From: Crocinitomicaceae bacterium TMED114
Lineage (GTDB): Bacteria > Bacteroidota > Bacteroidia > Flavobacteriales_D > Sanyastnellaceae
DNA length: 64,000 bases
NCBI GenBank assembly: GCA_002172485.2
Contig: NHFP02000005.1
Coordinates: forward strand, 66,402 to 130,401
Direction of reading: 5' to 3'
A program made the translations under genes and the position numbers. Under the pieces are notes generated by a model that saw nothing but the letters and a program-made list of their open reading frames with translations, was not told the origin of the DNA and did no database searches. Shown in pieces: positions 20,235 to 28,785 of this stretch. Numbering within the stretch: the first letter of the stretch is position 1; every line of letters begins with the position of its first letter.

Positions 20235-20262
20235 ATTTCAGGATCAACAGATGTGTTTCGGC

Positions 20263-20640
20263 TCACTCATCGAGAATGCACCGCAAGCAGAGCCCATAGG
20301 CCGGATCCAAGCCTCCACAGGCATCGAAAAACCGGTCCTCCTTGATGTGCACAACGGGCACGACCGTTACGATTCCCTCGTGCTCAACGTCCCAGTAACG
20401 CGTCCAGAACCACGCGGACTGATCGGCGTTCAAGTTCAACGAGGAAGCAGGTGCCAAGGGGTCAATGATGCCGGCGGGTTGGGCACTAAAGCCGAATTTG
20501 TTGAACTCAACGTCCGTGAGGGAGAAGTCCCAATCGGTGGGGTCACAGAACTCGGCACCGGTCACATTCGACCAATCCGCGGTAGAGATGCTGCGCGTGT
20601 ATTGATGCAGTTGGCTGTATTCGTTGCCGGTGGACACGTC
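20263..20640 (-). pseudogene. 3' fragment of a secreted-type protein, 5' end lost
   Basis: A stretch of about 125 codons reads as real protein on the minus strand: DVSTGNEYSQLHQYTRSIST, then WDFSLTDVEFNKFGFS, DQSAWFWTRYWDVEHEG, and a Cys-containing end (FDACGGLDPAYGLCLRCILDE), followed by a terminator. Further upstream in the same frame (right of ~20640) the reading turns into the antisense shadow of the plus-strand fragment, so the true 5' part is missing. I do not recognise the family. Together with the neighbour, this suggests a deletion that joined two divergent genes, or an assembly error. Confidence 0.5.
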
Positions 20641-21207
20641 TGGTTTCCGGTCGAGAGCGGCTGGTACCGGGTCGAGTCGGTGTCCGGTCTGGGATGCCCA
20701 CTGGCCAGCGATTCTCTTCTGGTGTGCTGGTCGGTTGAGACTCCGGAGGTCATCCAGGATGCGGCGGGAGACCTGGTCATCGAAGGGAACTTCGCCTCGG
20801 TCCAATGGTGGGCCGATGACATGGAACTCGAAGGCGAGACGGGTCTGATCCTGACGGCTCCAGGTGAAGGCAACTACTCGGTGTGGGTCACGGATTTCTT
20901 GGATTGTCCTGGGGTGCAGTCTGATGCTGTGGTCTACGTTGGTGTAGGCGAGGGCGAACCGGACATGACGTGGAGCATTCACCCCAATCCGGTCGGAAAG
21001 AAGTTCACGCTGGAGGTGCCGCAAGATTGGCGGGGTTCACTGGCGCTGTTGCTGGATGCTTCCGGTCGCATCCTCGAAGAGCGAAGGGGGATGGGGACCA
21101 CCACACAATGGAGGGTGGACAGCCGTTGGCCCGACGTTCTGTTTCTCCGAATGCTCCATCCGGAGGGCAGAGGTCAGCGTGTGATTCGCGTGCTTCGAGA
21201 GCGATGA
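20641..21207 (+). pseudogene. 3' fragment of a T9SS-sorted secreted protein, 5' end lost
   Basis: From about 20641 the plus strand reads as good protein: WFPVESGWYRVESVSGLGCP is an Ig/PKD-like repeat end, then SVQWWADDMELEGE, and from ~20970 a complete T9SS sorting domain (WSIHPNPVGKKFTLEV through VIRVLRER). The frame is open leftward to 20251, but that part is only the antisense of the minus-strand fragment. No signal peptide or start is present, so the protein could not be exported. The breakpoint with the opposite fragment is within a few codons of 20640. Confidence 0.55.
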
Positions 21208-21306
21208 AGTGGTGATTTGTGCCCCAATTTGTTCGTCATAGGACTCAGGATGGGCCTCAATGACGGGCCGGCTTCGGTTGGGGACACAAGCCAGTCCATC
21301 AGTCCC

Positions 21307-21314
21307 TATCTTAG
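21307..21314 (+). promoter_or_regulatory. Possible -7 promoter element of the trp leader
   Basis: TATCTTAG matches TANNTTTG at 7 of 8 bases and ends 4 bases before the leader-peptide ATG. If it is the promoter, transcription starts at or next to that codon. A TTG at 21278-21280 could be the upstream box, although the 26-base spacing is long. Confidence 0.4.
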
Positions 21315-21318
21315 AGCC

Positions 21319-21387
21319 ATGCAGCGGAACAACATCCAACAGTGGTGGTGGCCCTTCGAAAACGGAGGTGCGCGCGTGTACAGTTGA
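21319..21387 (+). CDS. trpL: Tryptophan operon leader peptide
   Basis: 22-codon open frame starting ATG 21319 and ending TGA 21385-21387. Codons 9-11 are TGG TGG TGG (21343-21351) within NNIQQWWWPFENGG, three tandem Trp codons in a very small frame directly before trpE. It also holds one Phe and one Tyr codon. A hairpin terminator lies 24 bases after the stop. This is the classical arrangement of a translated attenuator: slow reading of the Trp codons when Trp-tRNA is scarce would change the fold of the downstream RNA. No SD is evident; it may be translated from a leaderless transcript. Confidence 0.85.
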   Translation: MQRNNIQQWWWPFENGGARVYS

Positions 21388-21441
21388 TTTTTCAGACCAT
21401 CACACTCATCGCCCCCTCCACTCGAGGGGGTTTTTTGTTTT
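21364..21441 (+). promoter_or_regulatory. trp transcription attenuator (antiterminator and terminator)
   Basis: The terminator is CCCCCTC (21412-21418), loop CACTC, GAGGGGG (21424-21430), then TTTTTTGTTTT up to the trpE ATG at 21442. A competing pairing is available: GGAGG plus GCG at 21364-21372, inside the leader frame just after the Trp codons, can pair with CGC and CCTCC at 21410-21419 and take up the terminator's 5' arm. A ribosome stalled at 21343-21351 leaves 21364 onward free to form the antiterminator; a ribosome that reaches the stop codon covers it and the terminator forms. The antiterminator pairing was found by eye. Confidence 0.8.
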
Positions 21442-22791
21442 ATGACCTACACACTTCACCATCATCGGCAACTCAGTGATTCACTGACTCCGGTCCAGGC
21501 TTATCTCCTCCTCCGGGATGAAGGGCCCGCATCGTGTCTGTTTGAAAGCACGGATTACCACAGCCGGGAGGACGCCCACAGTGTTGTGGCCTTCGATCCA
21601 CTTGAGACATTGACCTTGACCCGCGAGGCCTTGAGACAGTCGGGGTATGCCGAGTCCATTGAGGCGTTTCTGGAGGGCATTGACTGTCCGGAGGCGAAGA
21701 CTCAAGGTGGATTCCTGGGCATTTATGGGACCACGGATTTCGAAGCGGTGGACGGCATGGATCCGGATGGACAGCCGCACCCAGGAGGGGGCGACAGCGA
21801 TGTTGTCGTGCAGTATTCCCTGTTTCGATTCGTCATGATTTTCGATCATTTCAAGCAAGTGTTGGAGTGTTGGGAGTTCTGTCCGGCAGGAGAGACTCCG
21901 GCATTGCCATCGCTCTTGAAGAGGCTCGCGTCACCCGCTCCGGCGCCGGCCCCGTTTTTCAAGTCAGGGGAGGTGGAGTCCAGTTTGACCCGGAGCCAAT
22001 TTGAGCAGATGGTGCAGGCTGGCATTCGGCAGTGCCATGAGGGTGAGGTGTTCCAAGTGGTGTATTCCCGGCACTTCGAGCAGGCCTTCACTGGAGATGA
22101 TTTTCAGGTGTATCGCGCTTTGCGGAGCATCAACCCGAGCCCTTTTCTCTACTATTTGGATGATGGAAACCGAAGGCTGTTTGGTTCCAGTCCGGAGGCG
22201 CAACTGTTGGTCCGCGACCGCATCGCCGAAGTTCACCCCATCGCCGGAACGGTGAAGCGCACAGAGTCAGAAGAGGAGAACGAAAGGGCCATCCAGGAAT
22301 TGAAGTCGAGTGAAAAGGAAAATGCAGAACACACGATGCTGCTCGACCTCGCGCGGAATGACCTCAACCGCAGTTGTCACCGCAGTGAAGTCAGCCGGTT
22401 CAAGGAGGTTCAACTGTTTAGCCACGTCATCCATCTCGTGAGCCATGTTCAGGCCCGGCTCCGAGAGGGAGTGCATGCCGCTCGAATTTTTGGGGACACC
22501 TTCCCCGCAGGCACATTGAGCGGGGCTCCCAAACTGAGGGCCATTGAGTTGATTGCATCACATGAACCTCATGCACGCGGGCTGTATGGAGGCGCAGTCG
22601 GATGTTACGGTCTGAATGGAGATTGCACCCACGCCATTGTCATTCGCTCATTCGTTTCCAAAACAGGCCGGTTGCATTATCAGGCAGGCGCTGGAGTGGT
22701 CATGGACAGCATTCCCGCATCCGAGGCGGATGAAGTAGAACGGAAGTTGCACGCCCTTGCCAAGGCCATGGATTTGGCCGAAACCATTTGA
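21442..22791 (+). CDS. trpE: Anthranilate synthase component I
   Basis: 449 residues. The chorismate-binding domain is at the C-terminal half (LYYLDDGNRRLFGSSPEAQL, VHPIAGTVKRTESEEEN, FPAGTLSGAPKLRAIELI, YGGAVGCYGLNGD), followed by YQAGAGVVMDS. CLFESTDYHSRED near residue 33 corresponds to the LLES tryptophan-feedback site, so allosteric inhibition by Trp is likely. With TrpG it turns chorismate and glutamine into anthranilate, the first committed step. The start immediately follows the attenuator U-run, so the terminator must be read through for the gene to be made. The next gene, trpG, begins 4 bases after its stop. Confidence 0.96.
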   Translation: MTYTLHHHRQLSDSLTPVQAYLLLRDEGPASCLFESTDYHSREDAHSVVAFDPLETLTLTREALRQSGYAESIEAFLEGIDCPEAKTQGGFLGIYGTTDFEAVDGMDPDGQPHPGGGDSDVVVQYSLFRFVMIFDHFKQVLECWEFCPAGETPALPSLLKRLASPAPAPAPFFKSGEVESSLTRSQFEQMVQAGIRQCHEGEVFQVVYSRHFEQAFTGDDFQVYRALRSINPSPFLYYLDDGNRRLFGSSPEAQLLVRDRIAEVHPIAGTVKRTESEEENERAIQELKSSEKENAEHTMLLDLARNDLNRSCHRSEVSRFKEVQLFSHVIHLVSHVQARLREGVHAARIFGDTFPAGTLSGAPKLRAIELIASHEPHARGLYGGAVGCYGLNGDCTHAIVIRSFVSKTGRLHYQAGAGVVMDSIPASEADEVERKLHALAKAMDLAETI

Positions 22792-22795
22792 TTCC

Positions 22796-23389
22796 ATGGC
22801 CATGCACACCACAGAAAAGACGGTGCTCATCATCGACAACTTTGATTCCTTCACCCACAACCTGGCGGCTTTGGTGGAAGAAGCCACGGGTTCACCCTGT
22901 CGGGTGATGCGCGCGGCAGAGGGCCGGCACAACATGGACGGGGGATGGAAGGCCGTCATTTTCGGTCCTGGGCCCTCCACCCCCGACGCTCATCCTGACC
23001 TTGTGGCCTGTCTCCGGTCCTTGCCGGAGGGAACGCCCGCGTTGGGCGTTTGCCTGGGCATGCAAGCGATGGCGGAGATCCATGGAGGGAGCATTGCGCT
23101 CTTGGATCGGCCCCGTCACGGCAAACTCAGAATGGTGAATGAGGTCAGGGCCTCCCACTCTTTCCAATGGCCGGAATGTCCCTTTCAGGTCGGCAGTTAC
23201 CACAGCTGGGTGGTCGATGGGGTGCCGGACGGTTGGAAGCCGACGGCACGCGATGACGAGGGATTCGTCATGGCCATGGAGCACGACACCTGCCCATGGG
23301 CAGGGGTGCAATTCCACCCGGAAAGCGTCATGACTCCATCGGGTCTCGAGATGATGGTTCACTTTCTCAATTCCCCTCGACATGATTGA
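22796..23389 (+). CDS. trpG: Anthranilate synthase component II (glutamine amidotransferase)
   Basis: 197 residues from ATG 22796 (MAMHTTEKTVLIIDNFDSFT); Met 22802 is an alternative, and the upstream extension into trpE is not credible. Class I glutamine amidotransferase: oxyanion loop FGPGPSTP, nucleophile Cys86 in GVCLGMQA, His-Glu in GVQFHPESV. It supplies ammonia from glutamine to TrpE. It overlaps trpD by 8 bases, suggesting translational coupling. There is no pabB-like gene nearby, so a shared role in folate synthesis is possible but not shown. Confidence 0.94.
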   Translation: MAMHTTEKTVLIIDNFDSFTHNLAALVEEATGSPCRVMRAAEGRHNMDGGWKAVIFGPGPSTPDAHPDLVACLRSLPEGTPALGVCLGMQAMAEIHGGSIALLDRPRHGKLRMVNEVRASHSFQWPECPFQVGSYHSWVVDGVPDGWKPTARDDEGFVMAMEHDTCPWAGVQFHPESVMTPSGLEMMVHFLNSPRHD

Positions 23390-24368
23390 CTTGAATCGCT
23401 TGAATGACATGAGGCGCCTTAACCGTTCGGAGGCACAGGCCGTCATGAATGACATGATGTCGGGGTCCATGTCCGATGTTCATCTGGCCGCGGCGTTGGC
23501 CTCTTTGAATCACCGCGAGCTTCACCTCGAGGAAATCCTCGGATTCCGGGATGCCATGTTGGAGCACGGCCAGACCGTGGATCTTGGTGGGGTGGCCTGC
23601 ATGGATTTCTGCGGAACCGGAGGGGACGGAAAGGACACCTTCAACATCAGCACGGCCACTGCTTTCCTCATGGGAGCCATGGGGGTGCCGGTGGTGAAGC
23701 ACGGGAATTACGGGGTGAGCAGCACGTGTGGGTCCAGCAATGTGCTTGAGAGCCTCGGTTATCGTTTTCCTCAGACAGCAGAGGACGCGAGGCGGTTGTT
23801 TGAACACAAGGGCAGTGTATTTCTCCATGCCCCATTCTTTCACCCGGCCATGCGCAACGTGGCCTCGGTCCGTTCGGCCTTGGGGGTTCGTACCCTGTTC
23901 AACATCATGGGGCCGCTGAGCAATCCGGCCTCTCCCACCCACCAGATGACGGGCACATTTGACCTGCGAACCCAGCGGTTGTATGCCTGGTGCACGGAAC
24001 GGATGGGCATCCAAGCGGCTGTGGTGCACAGTTTGGATGGGCACGATGAAATCTCGCTTACGTCCGATGTGCGCGTCTATTCGACCCGAAGCCACTTTCA
24101 CAAGGTGACCGTGGCGGACTTCGGATTGACGCCGTTGGTGCCGGGTGCCATTGGCGGTGCGGAGACTCCAGAGGACAACGCACAGCTGCTGTCCAATATC
24201 CTCAAAGGGGAAGGCACCGTAGACCAACGCCGTGTGGTGGCGGCCAATGCCGCCTTGGCCTTGACCGTATGGGATGCCGAGGCCACGCTGGACGCGGCCT
24301 TCTTCCGCGCCTTGAACTTCCTCGACTCCGGGCGTGCCTATGACCATCTTCAATCCTTGATTTCATGA
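23382..24368 (+). CDS. trpD: Anthranilate phosphoribosyltransferase
   Basis: 328 residues. Signature CGTGGDGKDTFNIST near residue 76 (phosphate/Mg binding), VKHGNYGVSSTCGSSNVLE and the anthranilate-channel segment FHPAMRNVASVRSALGVRT are all present. It joins anthranilate to PRPP. The family usually shows a KHGNR.S form; here it is KHGNYGVS, a small departure. It overlaps trpG by 8 bases and trpC by the ATGA-type 4-base overlap. Confidence 0.94.
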   Translation: MIDLNRLNDMRRLNRSEAQAVMNDMMSGSMSDVHLAAALASLNHRELHLEEILGFRDAMLEHGQTVDLGGVACMDFCGTGGDGKDTFNISTATAFLMGAMGVPVVKHGNYGVSSTCGSSNVLESLGYRFPQTAEDARRLFEHKGSVFLHAPFFHPAMRNVASVRSALGVRTLFNIMGPLSNPASPTHQMTGTFDLRTQRLYAWCTERMGIQAAVVHSLDGHDEISLTSDVRVYSTRSHFHKVTVADFGLTPLVPGAIGGAETPEDNAQLLSNILKGEGTVDQRRVVAANAALALTVWDAEATLDAAFFRALNFLDSGRAYDHLQSLIS

Positions 24369-25165
24369 ACGCCGCACTCGACACCATCGTAACCGGGCTT
24401 CGCCAGTCCCTTCCGGGGCAAGAAGCCCGTGTTCCCATTCCGCAATTGCAGACCTCCCCGCACTACGATGTGCCGTGTCTGTCTTTGGTCGATTACCTGA
24501 CTCGGCCAGACAAGAATGGCATCATCGCCGAATTCAAAAGGGCGTCTCCTTCGCGGGGTGCGTATCGCCTCGATGCCGATTTGTCTGAGACCACCCGTGG
24601 ATATATGCAGTCGGGGTGCAGTGGGTTGAGCATTCTCACTGAGCCGGATCACTTCCAAGGTTCACTGGAGGATTTGAGGTTGGCGCGAAGGCTGCATCTC
24701 TGTCCCATCCTGCGCAAGGATTTCATGCTTGAACCCTACCAGGTGCACGAGGCGAGGGCGGCCGGGGCGGACGTGATCCTGTTGATTGCCGCCTTGCTCG
24801 ACAAGTCGAAAGTGGCGGAGTTGGTCGGCTTGGCCCATGACCTCGGGATGGAGGTCCTGCTTGAATGCCATGGCGTCGAAGATCTCGACCTGTGGACGCC
24901 CGGCATCGATATGGTCGGGGTCAATTCGAGGAACCTCAGCACGCTGGATATGGATGCCCACCGGTTCGAACGGATGGTGTCTGACCTTCCGAAGGACAGC
25001 GTTTGGGTCGCCGAGAGTGGCATGCAGGGGGCGCCGGACATCGCAGCCGCTCGGGCTCTGGGTTATTCCGGTTTCCTGATTGGAGATGCATTTCTGAGAA
25101 ACAGCCTTCCCCACCAGGAATGTGCTAGAATCGTGCGGGAATTGACGGACGTGAAGGGGGAATGA
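24365..25165 (+). CDS. trpC: Indole-3-glycerol phosphate synthase
   Basis: 266 residues, monofunctional TIM barrel. Family marks: IIAEFKRASPSRG (catalytic Lys), LSILTEPDHFQGSLEDL, LRKDFMLEPYQVHEARAAGAD, GVNSRNLSTLDMD and VAESGMQ. It closes the indole ring from CdRP. ATG overlaps the trpD stop (ATGA), and the trpF start overlaps its own stop in the same way. The C-terminus FLIGDAFLRN is normal. Confidence 0.95.
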   Translation: MNAALDTIVTGLRQSLPGQEARVPIPQLQTSPHYDVPCLSLVDYLTRPDKNGIIAEFKRASPSRGAYRLDADLSETTRGYMQSGCSGLSILTEPDHFQGSLEDLRLARRLHLCPILRKDFMLEPYQVHEARAAGADVILLIAALLDKSKVAELVGLAHDLGMEVLLECHGVEDLDLWTPGIDMVGVNSRNLSTLDMDAHRFERMVSDLPKDSVWVAESGMQGAPDIAAARALGYSGFLIGDAFLRNSLPHQECARIVRELTDVKGE

Positions 25166-25800
25166 CAAGGCAATTTCACATCAAAGTCTGCGGATTGACC
25201 GCGGAGGACAACCTGCAAAACGTTCTCTTGTCGGGTGTGGATGCAATCGGCGTCATTTCCTGTCCGCCTTCTCCCCGTCATGTGGAGGTCGAAGACGTGG
25301 TGGACTTGCTGGAGACCTCCCGCCGATTGGACCCTCTGGTCGAGCGTCATTGGGTCGTTCGCGGCCTTTCCTTGACTGAGCTGGATGCGGCCTTCTCAGC
25401 GGGCTTGTCCTGCACGCATGTCCAATTGCATGGGGGGTACGCTAGAGCGGCCGCAGAACTCGTTCGAGACCATGGCCGACAGCCCGTTCAGGTCCACTCC
25501 ATGGTGGATGACGCGTTCCCGTCTGTGTGGCCGGAAACTGAGCGGCTCTTGTTGGATACACCCAGTGAGGCCGGAGGCGGGACAGGCAGGCCGTTTGACT
25601 GGACGGCGTTGTCCCGGTGGCAGGCGCCTTCCGTCGAGGTGATTCTGGCAGGCGGGCTCCATCCTAGGATTCCGAAAGCGAAGCTGCTCAAGTTGCCGGA
25701 CTGGGTCTCTGGATTGGACCTCAACAGCGGGGTGGAGACCTCCCCGGGCATCAAGTCTCCCGAGCTCATTCATCAATTCAAACACCTCTGCACATCATGA
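25162..25800 (+). CDS. trpF: Phosphoribosylanthranilate isomerase
   Basis: 212 residues. IKVCGLTAEDNLQNVLLSGVDAIG carries the catalytic Cys; PPSPRHV, CTHVQLHG, GGTGRPFDWTAL, ILAGGLHP and LDLNSGVETSPGIKSPELI follow in the family order, with the catalytic Asp in the last segment. It isomerises PRA to CdRP. ATGA overlaps on both sides. Slightly divergent (ISCPPSPR for the usual FxxxSPR), but all key residues appear to be in place. Confidence 0.93.
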   Translation: MTRQFHIKVCGLTAEDNLQNVLLSGVDAIGVISCPPSPRHVEVEDVVDLLETSRRLDPLVERHWVVRGLSLTELDAAFSAGLSCTHVQLHGGYARAAAELVRDHGRQPVQVHSMVDDAFPSVWPETERLLLDTPSEAGGGTGRPFDWTALSRWQAPSVEVILAGGLHPRIPKAKLLKLPDWVSGLDLNSGVETSPGIKSPELIHQFKHLCTS

Positions 25801-26972
25801 CGCAGCATCCCCTCATACGGAACGGTTATTACGGAGAGTTCGGCGGGCAGTTCATTCCAGAAATGCTGCGCCGGAATTTCATCGACCTGGAACAGGCTTT
25901 CGAAGACGCTTGGAAAGACGCGGAATTCAAGTCCACTTACGCGGACTTGTTGCGAGATTTTGTGGGCAGGCCCACTCCGCTCCAGCGGGCAGACCGCTGG
26001 AGTGAGCGTTGTGGAACTTCAGTCTGGTTCAAACGGGAGGACCTCGCCCACACAGGGGCCCACAAAATCAACAATGCAGTGGGTCAAGTTTTGCTGGCGA
26101 TGCGCATGGGGAAACGCCACATCATCGCCGAGACCGGTGCGGGTCAGCATGGTGTGGCCACGGCCACGGCCTGCGCTTGGGCCGGTTTGCCGTGCACCGT
26201 GTTCATGGGAGCAGAGGATATGGAACGGCAACAGCCCAATGTCGAACGCATGCGCCTCCTCGGTGCGGAGGTGCGGTCGGCGAACACAGGATCTCAGACG
26301 CTCAAGGATGCGACGAATGAGGCCATGCGGCATTGGATTGCCCATCCGGAGGAAACCCATTACGTGATTGGCTCTGCTGTGGGGCCTCATCCGTACCCGA
26401 TGATGGTGGCTGAATTCCATGGCATCATTGGAGAGGAGACCAAGACTGCCTGTCAAACCAAGGGGATCAAACCGAGTCATCTCGTCGCTTGTCTGGGTGG
26501 GGGGTCCAATGCTTTGGGGCTGTTCCTCCCATTTCTTGACGAAGACATTGAATTGATTGGAGTGGAAGCCGCCGGGGCTGGCGTGGAAAGCGGAAGGACT
26601 GCAGCGACGATTGAAAAGGGAAGTCCAGGCATCCTTCATGGTGCCAAAACCATGATTCTCCAAGATGATGAGGGGCAAATCGAAGAGGCCCACAGCATCA
26701 GTGCGGGCTTGGACTACCCCGGGATTGGTCCCTTGCATGCACACCTTGCGTCCACGGGTAGGCTCCGCACAGCGGCGGCCGAGGACGAAGAAGCGCTGCA
26801 AGCGGGACTGCTTTGCACCCGTCTTGAGGGGATTCTTCCCGCCTTGGAGACGGCCCATGCCTTGGCTTGGACCCTACGGGCCGACTGGTCTGGGAGTGAA
26901 GAGGTCATTCTCAATTTGAGTGGAAGGGGAGACAAGGACCTGAAGAACTACATCCAAAATCCCGGTGAATGA
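25797..26972 (+). CDS. trpB: Tryptophan synthase beta chain
   Basis: 391 residues, usual length. GEFGGQFIPEMLRRN, the PLP lysine in HTGAHKINNAVGQ, AETGAGQHGVATATACA, GGGSNALGLF phosphate loop and the C-terminal SGRGDKDL are all typical. It condenses indole with serine. TrpB1 type (HTGAHK, with an adjacent trpA). ATGA overlap with trpF, 4-base overlap with trpA. Confidence 0.97.
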   Translation: MTQHPLIRNGYYGEFGGQFIPEMLRRNFIDLEQAFEDAWKDAEFKSTYADLLRDFVGRPTPLQRADRWSERCGTSVWFKREDLAHTGAHKINNAVGQVLLAMRMGKRHIIAETGAGQHGVATATACAWAGLPCTVFMGAEDMERQQPNVERMRLLGAEVRSANTGSQTLKDATNEAMRHWIAHPEETHYVIGSAVGPHPYPMMVAEFHGIIGEETKTACQTKGIKPSHLVACLGGGSNALGLFLPFLDEDIELIGVEAAGAGVESGRTAATIEKGSPGILHGAKTMILQDDEGQIEEAHSISAGLDYPGIGPLHAHLASTGRLRTAAAEDEEALQAGLLCTRLEGILPALETAHALAWTLRADWSGSEEVILNLSGRGDKDLKNYIQNPGE

Positions 26973-27775
26973 TGAAGGAGCTGATGTCCATTTTGAGAGA
27001 AGACAATCGGGTGAACCTCTCCATTTTTCTGACCGCTGGATTCCCGGACATGAAGACAAGTCAGGCGTTGCTGAAGGTCTTGGCGAATCACCCTGCTGTT
27101 TCCTTTGTTGAGCTGGGCATGCCATTCAGTGACCCGCTGGCGGACGGTCCCACCATTCAGAGGGCGTCCGAAATCGCGTTGGCACAGGGCACCAAATTGG
27201 ATGATGTCTTTGCGCTGGCCAGCGGGTTTCGTGCTTCCTGTGACAAGCCTTTGATGCTGATGGGCTATTGCAATCCAGTGTACCGCCGCGGTGTTGAGGC
27301 CTTCGTGACGCAAGCGCGGGATGCGGGGGCCTCGGGCCTCATCCTTCCCGATCTTCCTTATGCCTCGCATGACCGTGATTTTCGGAGCGTCCTCGAAGCG
27401 AATGGCCAGACCATGTCCTTCCTCGTCAGCCCGACGAGCACCGAGGAGTCCATGGATGAGGCCTTTGAAAAGAGCACAGCTTTTGTCTACGGTGTGGCCA
27501 ATGTTGGATTGACCGGAGACGCCCAGTCGGTGGACAGGACGGCCTTTTTCGAGGGCCTTCAGGACCATCGAACGCGTTGCCCCATCGTGGCGGGATTCGG
27601 AATCTCTGATCCCGCGGACATCCAGCAATTGGAGGGCTTCGTGGATGGGGCCATCATCGGCTCGGCCTTTCTCCGTGCGCTCGGCCCCATTGGGGAAAGC
27701 AGGCCTTCTGAATCCGAGGCAGTCCAACGGGCAATCGCGTTTTTAAATCTGTTCACCCCCCACTCGCAACCATGA
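26969..27775 (+). CDS. trpA: Tryptophan synthase alpha chain
   Basis: 268 residues. The catalytic Glu lies in FVELGMPFSDPLADGPTIQ, with the catalytic Asp in the same segment; GLILPDLPYASHD, YGVANVGLTGD and GFGISDPADI complete the barrel. It releases indole from indole-3-glycerol phosphate and channels it to TrpB. ATGA overlaps at both ends; followed without a gap by the DAHP synthase gene. Confidence 0.95.
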   Translation: MMKELMSILREDNRVNLSIFLTAGFPDMKTSQALLKVLANHPAVSFVELGMPFSDPLADGPTIQRASEIALAQGTKLDDVFALASGFRASCDKPLMLMGYCNPVYRRGVEAFVTQARDAGASGLILPDLPYASHDRDFRSVLEANGQTMSFLVSPTSTEESMDEAFEKSTAFVYGVANVGLTGDAQSVDRTAFFEGLQDHRTRCPIVAGFGISDPADIQQLEGFVDGAIIGSAFLRALGPIGESRPSESEAVQRAIAFLNLFTPHSQP

Positions 27776-28785
27776 TCGTCCAACTTCATCATCCATCTTC
27801 CTCTGAAGTGATTCAGGAAGCTGAAGCCTTTCTCGCGTCTTTGCATGTGCGGTCTCGGCTTGTGCAAACCGCGGATTCCACGATGTTCGTCGTGTATGCC
27901 GGTGACCTGCCGGATCCACGGCGCATCCGACAATGTCCCGGTGTCCGGGATGTCCACCGGATCTCCGATGATTTCAAGCTCGTCAGCAGCCAATGGAAGC
28001 AGGGTCGCTCGACCGTCCGGGCAGGTGAGGTCGACTTCGGTCCGAGGGACTTTCAGTTGATCATGGGACCATGCAGCGTAGAGGGAGAGGATCAACTGGA
28101 GTCCGTTGCCGCCTTTCTTGCAGCACAAGGGGTCAGCATGATGCGTGGAGGCGTGTACAAACCCAGAAGCAGTCCTTATTCGTTTCGGGGCATGGGGCTG
28201 GAGGGGCTGGATGTGTTCCGGCGGGTGGCCGATCGACATGGACTCGGCATTGTGACCGAAGTGATGGAAGTGGCCCAGATCGAAGCCATGGTCGACAAGG
28301 TGGATGTGTTTCAAATCGGAGCCAGAAACATGCAGAATTTCAATTTGCTGGAAGCCGTGGGTCAATCGGGTCTACCGGTCCTGCTGAAACGAAGCATGTC
28401 CGGCACAATCGAGGAGTTCCTCCAATGTGCTGAGTACATCTACAATGTGGGAAACGAGCGCATTTTGCTGTGCGAAAGGGGCATCCGAACCTTCGAAAGC
28501 GCGTATCGGAATACGTTTGATGTGAATGCCATCTCGTATTTGCAAGCGCGATCACATCTGCCGGTGATTGCCGATCCATCTCATGGAGTGGGACTGCGTC
28601 GTCATGTGGTGGACGTCGGGCTCGCGGCAGTGGCGGCAGGAGCTGATGGCCTGATGGTTGAAATCCATCCCCGTCCGGATGAAGCCGTCAGTGACCGAAA
28701 TCAAACGCTGTATTTCGATCAGGCGGCGAAGCTGATCGAAGGGAGCCGAAAGGTCCATGCATTGAGGACCAGTCTGGTGCCGTGA
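27772..28785 (+). CDS. aroF: 3-deoxy-7-phosphoheptulonate (DAHP) synthase, type I beta
   Basis: 337 residues, the Thermotoga-like length with an N-terminal ferredoxin-like regulatory domain (~1-85, MIVQLHHPSSSEVIQEAE) before the KDO8P/DAHP barrel. Core marks: LIMGPCSVEGEDQ, MMRGGVYKPRSSPYSFRG, VFQIGARNMQNFNLL, LLKRSMSGTIEEF, LLCERGIRTFE, DPSHGVGLRRHVV and GLMVEIHP. It catalyses the first step of the aromatic pathway. It is the last gene of the trp operon (ATGA overlap with trpA), so Trp attenuation should also set entry into the shared pathway. No chorismate mutase domain is seen; the N-terminal domain may bind Tyr or Phe, which is inferred. Confidence 0.92.
   Translation: MIVQLHHPSSSEVIQEAEAFLASLHVRSRLVQTADSTMFVVYAGDLPDPRRIRQCPGVRDVHRISDDFKLVSSQWKQGRSTVRAGEVDFGPRDFQLIMGPCSVEGEDQLESVAAFLAAQGVSMMRGGVYKPRSSPYSFRGMGLEGLDVFRRVADRHGLGIVTEVMEVAQIEAMVDKVDVFQIGARNMQNFNLLEAVGQSGLPVLLKRSMSGTIEEFLQCAEYIYNVGNERILLCERGIRTFESAYRNTFDVNAISYLQARSHLPVIADPSHGVGLRRHVVDVGLAAVAAGADGLMVEIHPRPDEAVSDRNQTLYFDQAAKLIEGSRKVHALRTSLVP

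Follow-up and report, generated by a model that had tools for sequence, protein, structure and literature searches.

How is the tryptophan operon of this bacterium controlled, and is the short gap before its trpE gene the place of that control? The window, by which we mean the whole stretch of 64,000 nucleotides analysed, had been given a sequence-only reading that placed a complete ribosome-mediated trp attenuator in this gap. Our analysis indicates that the element before trpE very probably attenuates transcription of the trp operon in a ribosome-mediated manner. A leader ORF with its Trp codons, three mutually exclusive helices, an intrinsic terminator, the operon itself and conservation of the arrangement were all found in the sequence and by computation.

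The leader and the operon

The attenuator elements lie in a gap of 234 nt located 3′ of an ORF with its end at 21207 (Table 1). Direct reading of the sequence gave the order TATCTTAG, AGCC and then the leader ATG at the 5′ end. The 22-codon frame, the three TGG codons and the terminator with its U-run reaching the trpE ATG were confirmed at the positions given by the sequence-only reading. The geometry that it had called classical, a stall site followed by an antiterminator arm and then by the terminator, was also found, with all elements in this order. An intrinsic terminator is present between the trpL ORF and trpE, the first structural gene.

The gene order is trpEGDCFBA-DAHP synthase, and the gene ends overlap or closely abut. 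The trpE product matched Pfam PF00425 and PF04715, both above cutoff. The upstream ORF (20251–21207) had no match upon searches against Pfam and NCBIfam. Its C-terminus (HPNPVGKKFTLEV...) may resemble a type IX secretion sorting domain.

Table 1. Positions in the window of the leader elements and the operon genes.
Feature	Position	Strand	Basis or remark
−7-like box, TATCTTAG	21307..21314	+	TAnnTTTG, 5 of 6
Predicted transcription start, at or beside A of leader ATG	21319	+	inferred from 4-nt gap
Leader ORF trpL, MQRNNIQQWWWPFENGGARVYS, 22 codons and TGA stop	21319..21387	+	sequence, relatives
Three tandem Trp codons (TGG TGG TGG), putative ribosome stall site	21343..21351	+	
Helix 1:2, anti-antiterminator	21348..21375 (21348–21358 with 21363–21375)	+	folding
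Segment 2, CGGAGGUGCGCG	21363..21374	+	GGAGG (21364–21368) with CCUCC (21415–21419) in antiterminator
Antiterminator 2:3	21364..21419	+	folding, upstream RNA masked
Intrinsic terminator hairpin 3:4, GCCCCCTC-CACTC-GAGGGGGT	21411..21431	+	8 bp, loop CACTC
Terminator U-run, T6 G T4	21431..21441	+	adjoins trpE ATG; kept in relatives
trpE, anthranilate synthase component I	21442..22791	+	TIGR00564 E 3e-103, below cutoff
trpG	22802..23389	+	amidotransferase families, component II
trpD	23382..24368	+	TIGR01245 above cutoff
trpC	24365..25165	+	
trpF	25162..25800	+	
trpB	25797..26972	+	TIGR00263 above cutoff
trpA	26969..27775	+	TIGR00262 above cutoff
DAHP synthase, first aromatic-pathway step, overlapping operon end	27772..28785	+	NF006421 above cutoff

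Single features prove nothing here, because TGGTGGTGG and the terminator are each near the chance rate. The former occurs once in the 64-kb window against 1.3 expected and is unremarkable alone, and the terminator as a pattern match showed no enrichment in the window. We then turn to the conjunction of features. Over 1.18 Mb of this genome, a TAnnTTTG-like box stands 3–10 nt 5′ of the start of 85 short ORFs. A strong terminator follows five of these 85, and one out of the five, which is trpL itself, contains an amino-acid run; no further box-started leader with an amino-acid run and a terminator was found in this 1.18 Mb. The conjunction of features at trpL is more than chance. The test for a W.?W leader matched 80 of the 986 long ORFs in the own genome and is thus weak by itself, so the claims made here rest on the conjunction of features.

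Folding of the leader RNA

With the RNA 5′ of 21358 masked, to mimic a ribosome sitting on the Trp codons, and with the 3′ arm of the terminator omitted, 21364–21372 paired with 21410–21419 at −16.7 kcal/mol. This is the very helix that had been proposed as a possible antiterminator in the sequence-only reading. It uses the 5′ arm of the terminator, is freed with the ribosome placed at the Trp codons, and has an apical extension of the GUGU type (21376–21379 with 21402–21405). Without masking, helix 1:2 formed, and the complete RNA folded into 1:2 plus the terminator. The helices 1:2, 2:3 and 3:4 of the window leader are mutually exclusive in these folds, and E. coli trpL showed an identical switching pattern in the masked folding test. 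The duplex between segments 2 and 3 in the window had an energy of −12.6 kcal/mol (p 0.0035 versus dinucleotide shuffles), and the 1:2 hairpin alone was weakly better than shuffles (p 0.07).

Conservation in close relatives

The TrpE of this operon was found in 3 of the 17 genomes of the genus, and a search of 114 genomes of the family revealed just one further close homologue. The four trp-operon genomes are G000 (the window's own), G005, G004 and G088. Given this patchy distribution, many of these bacteria may depend on Trp from outside, or incomplete metagenome-assembled genomes (MAGs) may simply lack the gene.

The leader is present in all four trp-operon genomes. Conservation in relatives had been put forward as a check on the sequence-only reading, and the comparison bore the reading out, as both the Trp codons and the switch are kept in the four family members. 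The Trp run is WWW in G000, G005 and G004 and WRW in G088; the leader starts with ATG in G000, G005 and G088 and with GTG in G004, which has an additional in-frame ATG 13 nt after the box. The box is TATCTTAG in G000, G005 and G004 and TACCTTCG in G088. The earlier observation that the leader ATG stands 4 bases after a −7-like box also extends to the family, as box and start codon are exactly 4 nt apart in each of the four members. Alignment of the G000 and G005 leaders showed six differing codons, five of them synonymous, as expected for a translated frame.

The terminator stem is identical in the four genomes, and its loop is variable. Antiterminator 2:3 was formed in G005, G004 and G088 as well, and the leaders of G005 and G088 switched likewise in masked folding. 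The competing helix 1:2 was formed in G000, G005 and G088; equivalent 1:2 hairpins of different sequence occur in G088 (GGUACCUC/GGGGUGCC) and G004 (CCUUCU/GGGAGG). In G004 the antiterminator formed under masking, the 1:2 hairpin was weak (−7.9 kcal/mol, p 0.25), and the unmasked full-length minimum-energy fold had segments 2 and 3 paired and the terminator absent. Across the 1:2 region, MAFFT aligned the four relatives gapless with their helices one base out of register, so that column-wise covariation of the four is not scorable.

Survey across Bacteroidia

TrpE searches of 399 genomes of the order and 395 genomes of the class led to 134 loci that were read upstream, 65 from the order and 69 outside it, the latter being a non-random set of best-scoring loci and loci hand-picked for family spread. 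A Trp-rich leader ORF (W.?W) was found before trpE at 118 of the 134 loci, versus 24 of 134 in the reverse-strand control. Such an ORF was present at 61 of 65 loci in the order and, for the rest of the class, at 57 of 69. Several of the loci lacking it are contigs ending early upstream of trpE, and a few positives may be chance. In 115 testable leaders, the pairing of segment 2 with segment 3 was compared with shuffles, giving a mean z of −1.94 and p≤0.05 in 62 of them. Swapping the terminator arms between loci weakened the pairing (mean rank 0.21 versus 0.5, Wilcoxon P 6.5e-18), and these pooled shuffle and swap statistics ignore kinship and are inflated by relatedness.

At three loci, L052 (genome G288), L059 (G233) and L111 (G696), two complete units, each a Trp-rich leader ORF with a terminator of its own, stand in series before trpE, within about 290 nt upstream of it. 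Judged by their layout, these are apparent tandem leader-peptide attenuators. In L052 and L059 the first leader has a box 8 or 4 nt before its ATG. The second leader is placed after the first terminator, and in these two loci it showed no separate box.

From L047 to L093, many Flavobacteriales leaders have a second Trp group with Cys, such as WCAW or WCEW, which is located near the stop codon and inside segment 2.

The start of the leader transcript

A sigma-70 promoter scan is ill-suited to Bacteroidota. In F. johnsoniae, transcription starts 4–5 nt after the −7 element (PMC6847099). This spacing and the conserved 4-nt gap together predict a leaderless leader mRNA, and trpL is accordingly predicted to be translated from leaderless RNA.

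Among the 118 Bacteroidia leaders, a box (at least 5 of 6) ends no more than 10 nt before the ATG nearest to the Trp codons in 80, while the shuffle control gave a mean of 24 and a maximum of 34. Most of the box-to-ATG gaps are 4–10 nt, which corresponds to 5′ UTRs of about 0–6 nt. This suggests that a leaderless or near-leaderless start is the commonest arrangement predicted among the Bacteroidia trp leaders examined. The proposal of a leaderless leader RNA therefore stands as a prediction from the 4-nt spacing, but its description as an unusual variant does not, given this frequency and a precedent in Sinorhizobium meliloti.

In the own genome, TAnnTT(T/C/G)G is 8–16 fold enriched upstream of ORFs (contigs C2, C3 and C4, 1.18 Mb), and the box lies 4–9 nt before the ATG in 20 of the 72 ORFs that have one within 120 nt, the start of each ORF being simply taken as that of the longest frame. 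Published rates for mRNAs in general are far below the share seen among the trp leaders: 5.5% of F. psychrophilum mRNAs are leaderless (PMC9723704), about 3.7% of 5′ UTRs in B. thetaiotaomicron are under 10 nt (PMC7366714), and 13% of F. johnsoniae leaders are 10 nt or shorter, as derived from the 87% above 10 nt (PMC6847099). Judging from the 20 of 72 ORFs, leaderless mRNAs could be more frequent in this lineage than in the three species compared. The box variant with A (TTAG), as at trpL, was found in none of the 380 other upstream regions of the own genome, which makes the strength of the promoter uncertain.

Alternative explanations

Could the hairpin also act on translation? When re-formed in read-through RNA, hairpin 3:4 might lower the initiation of trpE translation as well, so that the antiterminator would raise elongation and initiation both, given that the hairpin ends about 10 nt 5′ of the trpE ATG. 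In each of the four family members it lies at −31 to −11 with respect to trpE (at most −33 to −13), which fits such a double role; in most other Flavobacteriales the hairpin is farther from trpE. However, the long conserved U-run and the GC-rich stem are typical of an intrinsic terminator, and a structure including the trpE start codon was not found among the folds. We consider this double role improbable. Still less probable is a promoter farther upstream with an ordinary 5′ UTR, under which the 4-nt spacing would be coincidental. It would account for the TTAG in place of TTTG, a variant absent at other genes here, and for the failure to see a clear −33 element, and two more TTTG-containing stretches are available at about 21213–21232. 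But the 4-nt gap recurs in four genomes, including the one with the TACCTTCG box and the one with the GTG start, and a gap of 4–10 nt is modal in the 118 Bacteroidia leaders.

Two further explanations dispense with the leader peptide, and we give both almost no weight. A Trp-independent terminator accompanied by a chance ORF agrees with the near-chance rates of TGGTGGTGG and of terminator-like hairpins, each taken singly, but is contradicted by conservation and by the family- and class-wide association with trpE. T-box and TRAP-like leaders serve trp in other phyla, and a leader sensing tRNA or protein might do so here. Against this, no Rfam family reached threshold in the window, a T-box was absent around the leader even at E 10, and neither type would be expected to have a conserved frame with tandem Trp codons. 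A ribosome-mediated attenuator remains the preferred reading of the element.

Comparison with known systems

The best Rfam match to the leader was RF00513 (Trp_leader), with 20.3 bits, an E value of 0.074 and an end-to-end alignment, which is below the gathering threshold of 41 bits. The E. coli trp region used as a control scored 93.1 bits with the same family, and the 19 Bacteroidia loci in that scan all stayed below the threshold. E. coli trpL-trpE is alike in its short ORF, tandem Trp codons, helices 1:2, 2:3 and 3:4, terminator and leader-trpE gene order. It differs in that its leader has a 5′ UTR and a ribosome-binding site, whereas a leaderless start is predicted here, and in this operon the terminator adjoins the trpE start codon.

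A Trp leader peptide made from RNA that begins with the ATG is known from S. meliloti trpL/rnTrpL (PMC7298713). That alphaproteobacterial leader governs trpE(G) only, whereas the one described here would govern the whole pathway and DAHP synthase; in S. meliloti, both the RNA and the peptide have trans activity as well. A survey of 2010 stated that leader peptides had been unknown outside Proteobacteria and Actinobacteria until it added Firmicutes (PMC2965389). In the F. psychrophilum transcriptome report, one sentence mentions strong clues for leader-peptide attenuation 5′ of amino-acid biosynthesis operons, and nothing on trp, leaderless leaders or distribution was found in the main text (PMC9723704). 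Our literature search, which covered a minority of subscription papers, yielded no account of trp attenuation in Bacteroidota. The mechanism is thus already known, and a leaderless trpL has its precedent in S. meliloti. The class-wide breadth, the near-leaderless habit and the three tandem-attenuator loci look new, and no description of the first two turned up in the literature searched.

Proposed mechanism and significance

From these elements we infer the start site, the translation of the leader, the stalling and the response to Trp, as follows. RNA polymerase would begin on or next to the leader ATG, and the 5′-terminal AUG would be loaded with a ribosome without the help of a Shine-Dalgarno sequence. 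When charged tRNA-Trp is scarce, the ribosome would stall on UGG UGG UGG and cover segment 1, segment 2 (GGAGG) would pair with the CCUCC of segment 3, and with the terminator blocked trpEGDCFBA and the DAHP synthase gene would be transcribed. With Trp in good supply, translation would proceed to the stop codon, 3′ of segment 2, or the ribosome would release. Segment 2 would then be occupied by helix 1:2 or by the ribosome, hairpin 3:4 with its U-run would form, and transcription would end just before trpE. As DAHP synthase is last in the operon, the attenuator would gate the first aromatic step too.

Whether leaderless or near-leaderless leader-peptide attenuation is an ancestral rule of Trp control across the class Bacteroidia, with some lineages stacking two units, is in our judgement evenly balanced. 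If it is, a leader AUG at the 5′ end would allow the ribosome to load on the RNA immediately upon its emergence, and this early loading would keep pace with the polymerase for the switch, in a phylum without Shine-Dalgarno initiation. The finding extends a textbook form of control, known mainly from Proteobacteria and Actinobacteria, to a large phylum that lacks Shine-Dalgarno sequences in its mRNAs. The leaders are a set of RNAs beyond the reach of the Rfam Trp_leader model, and they offer concrete cases for testing fast ribosome loading in attenuation without Shine-Dalgarno sequences. For a lineage known from MAGs, they provide a testable scheme for the control of Trp synthesis.
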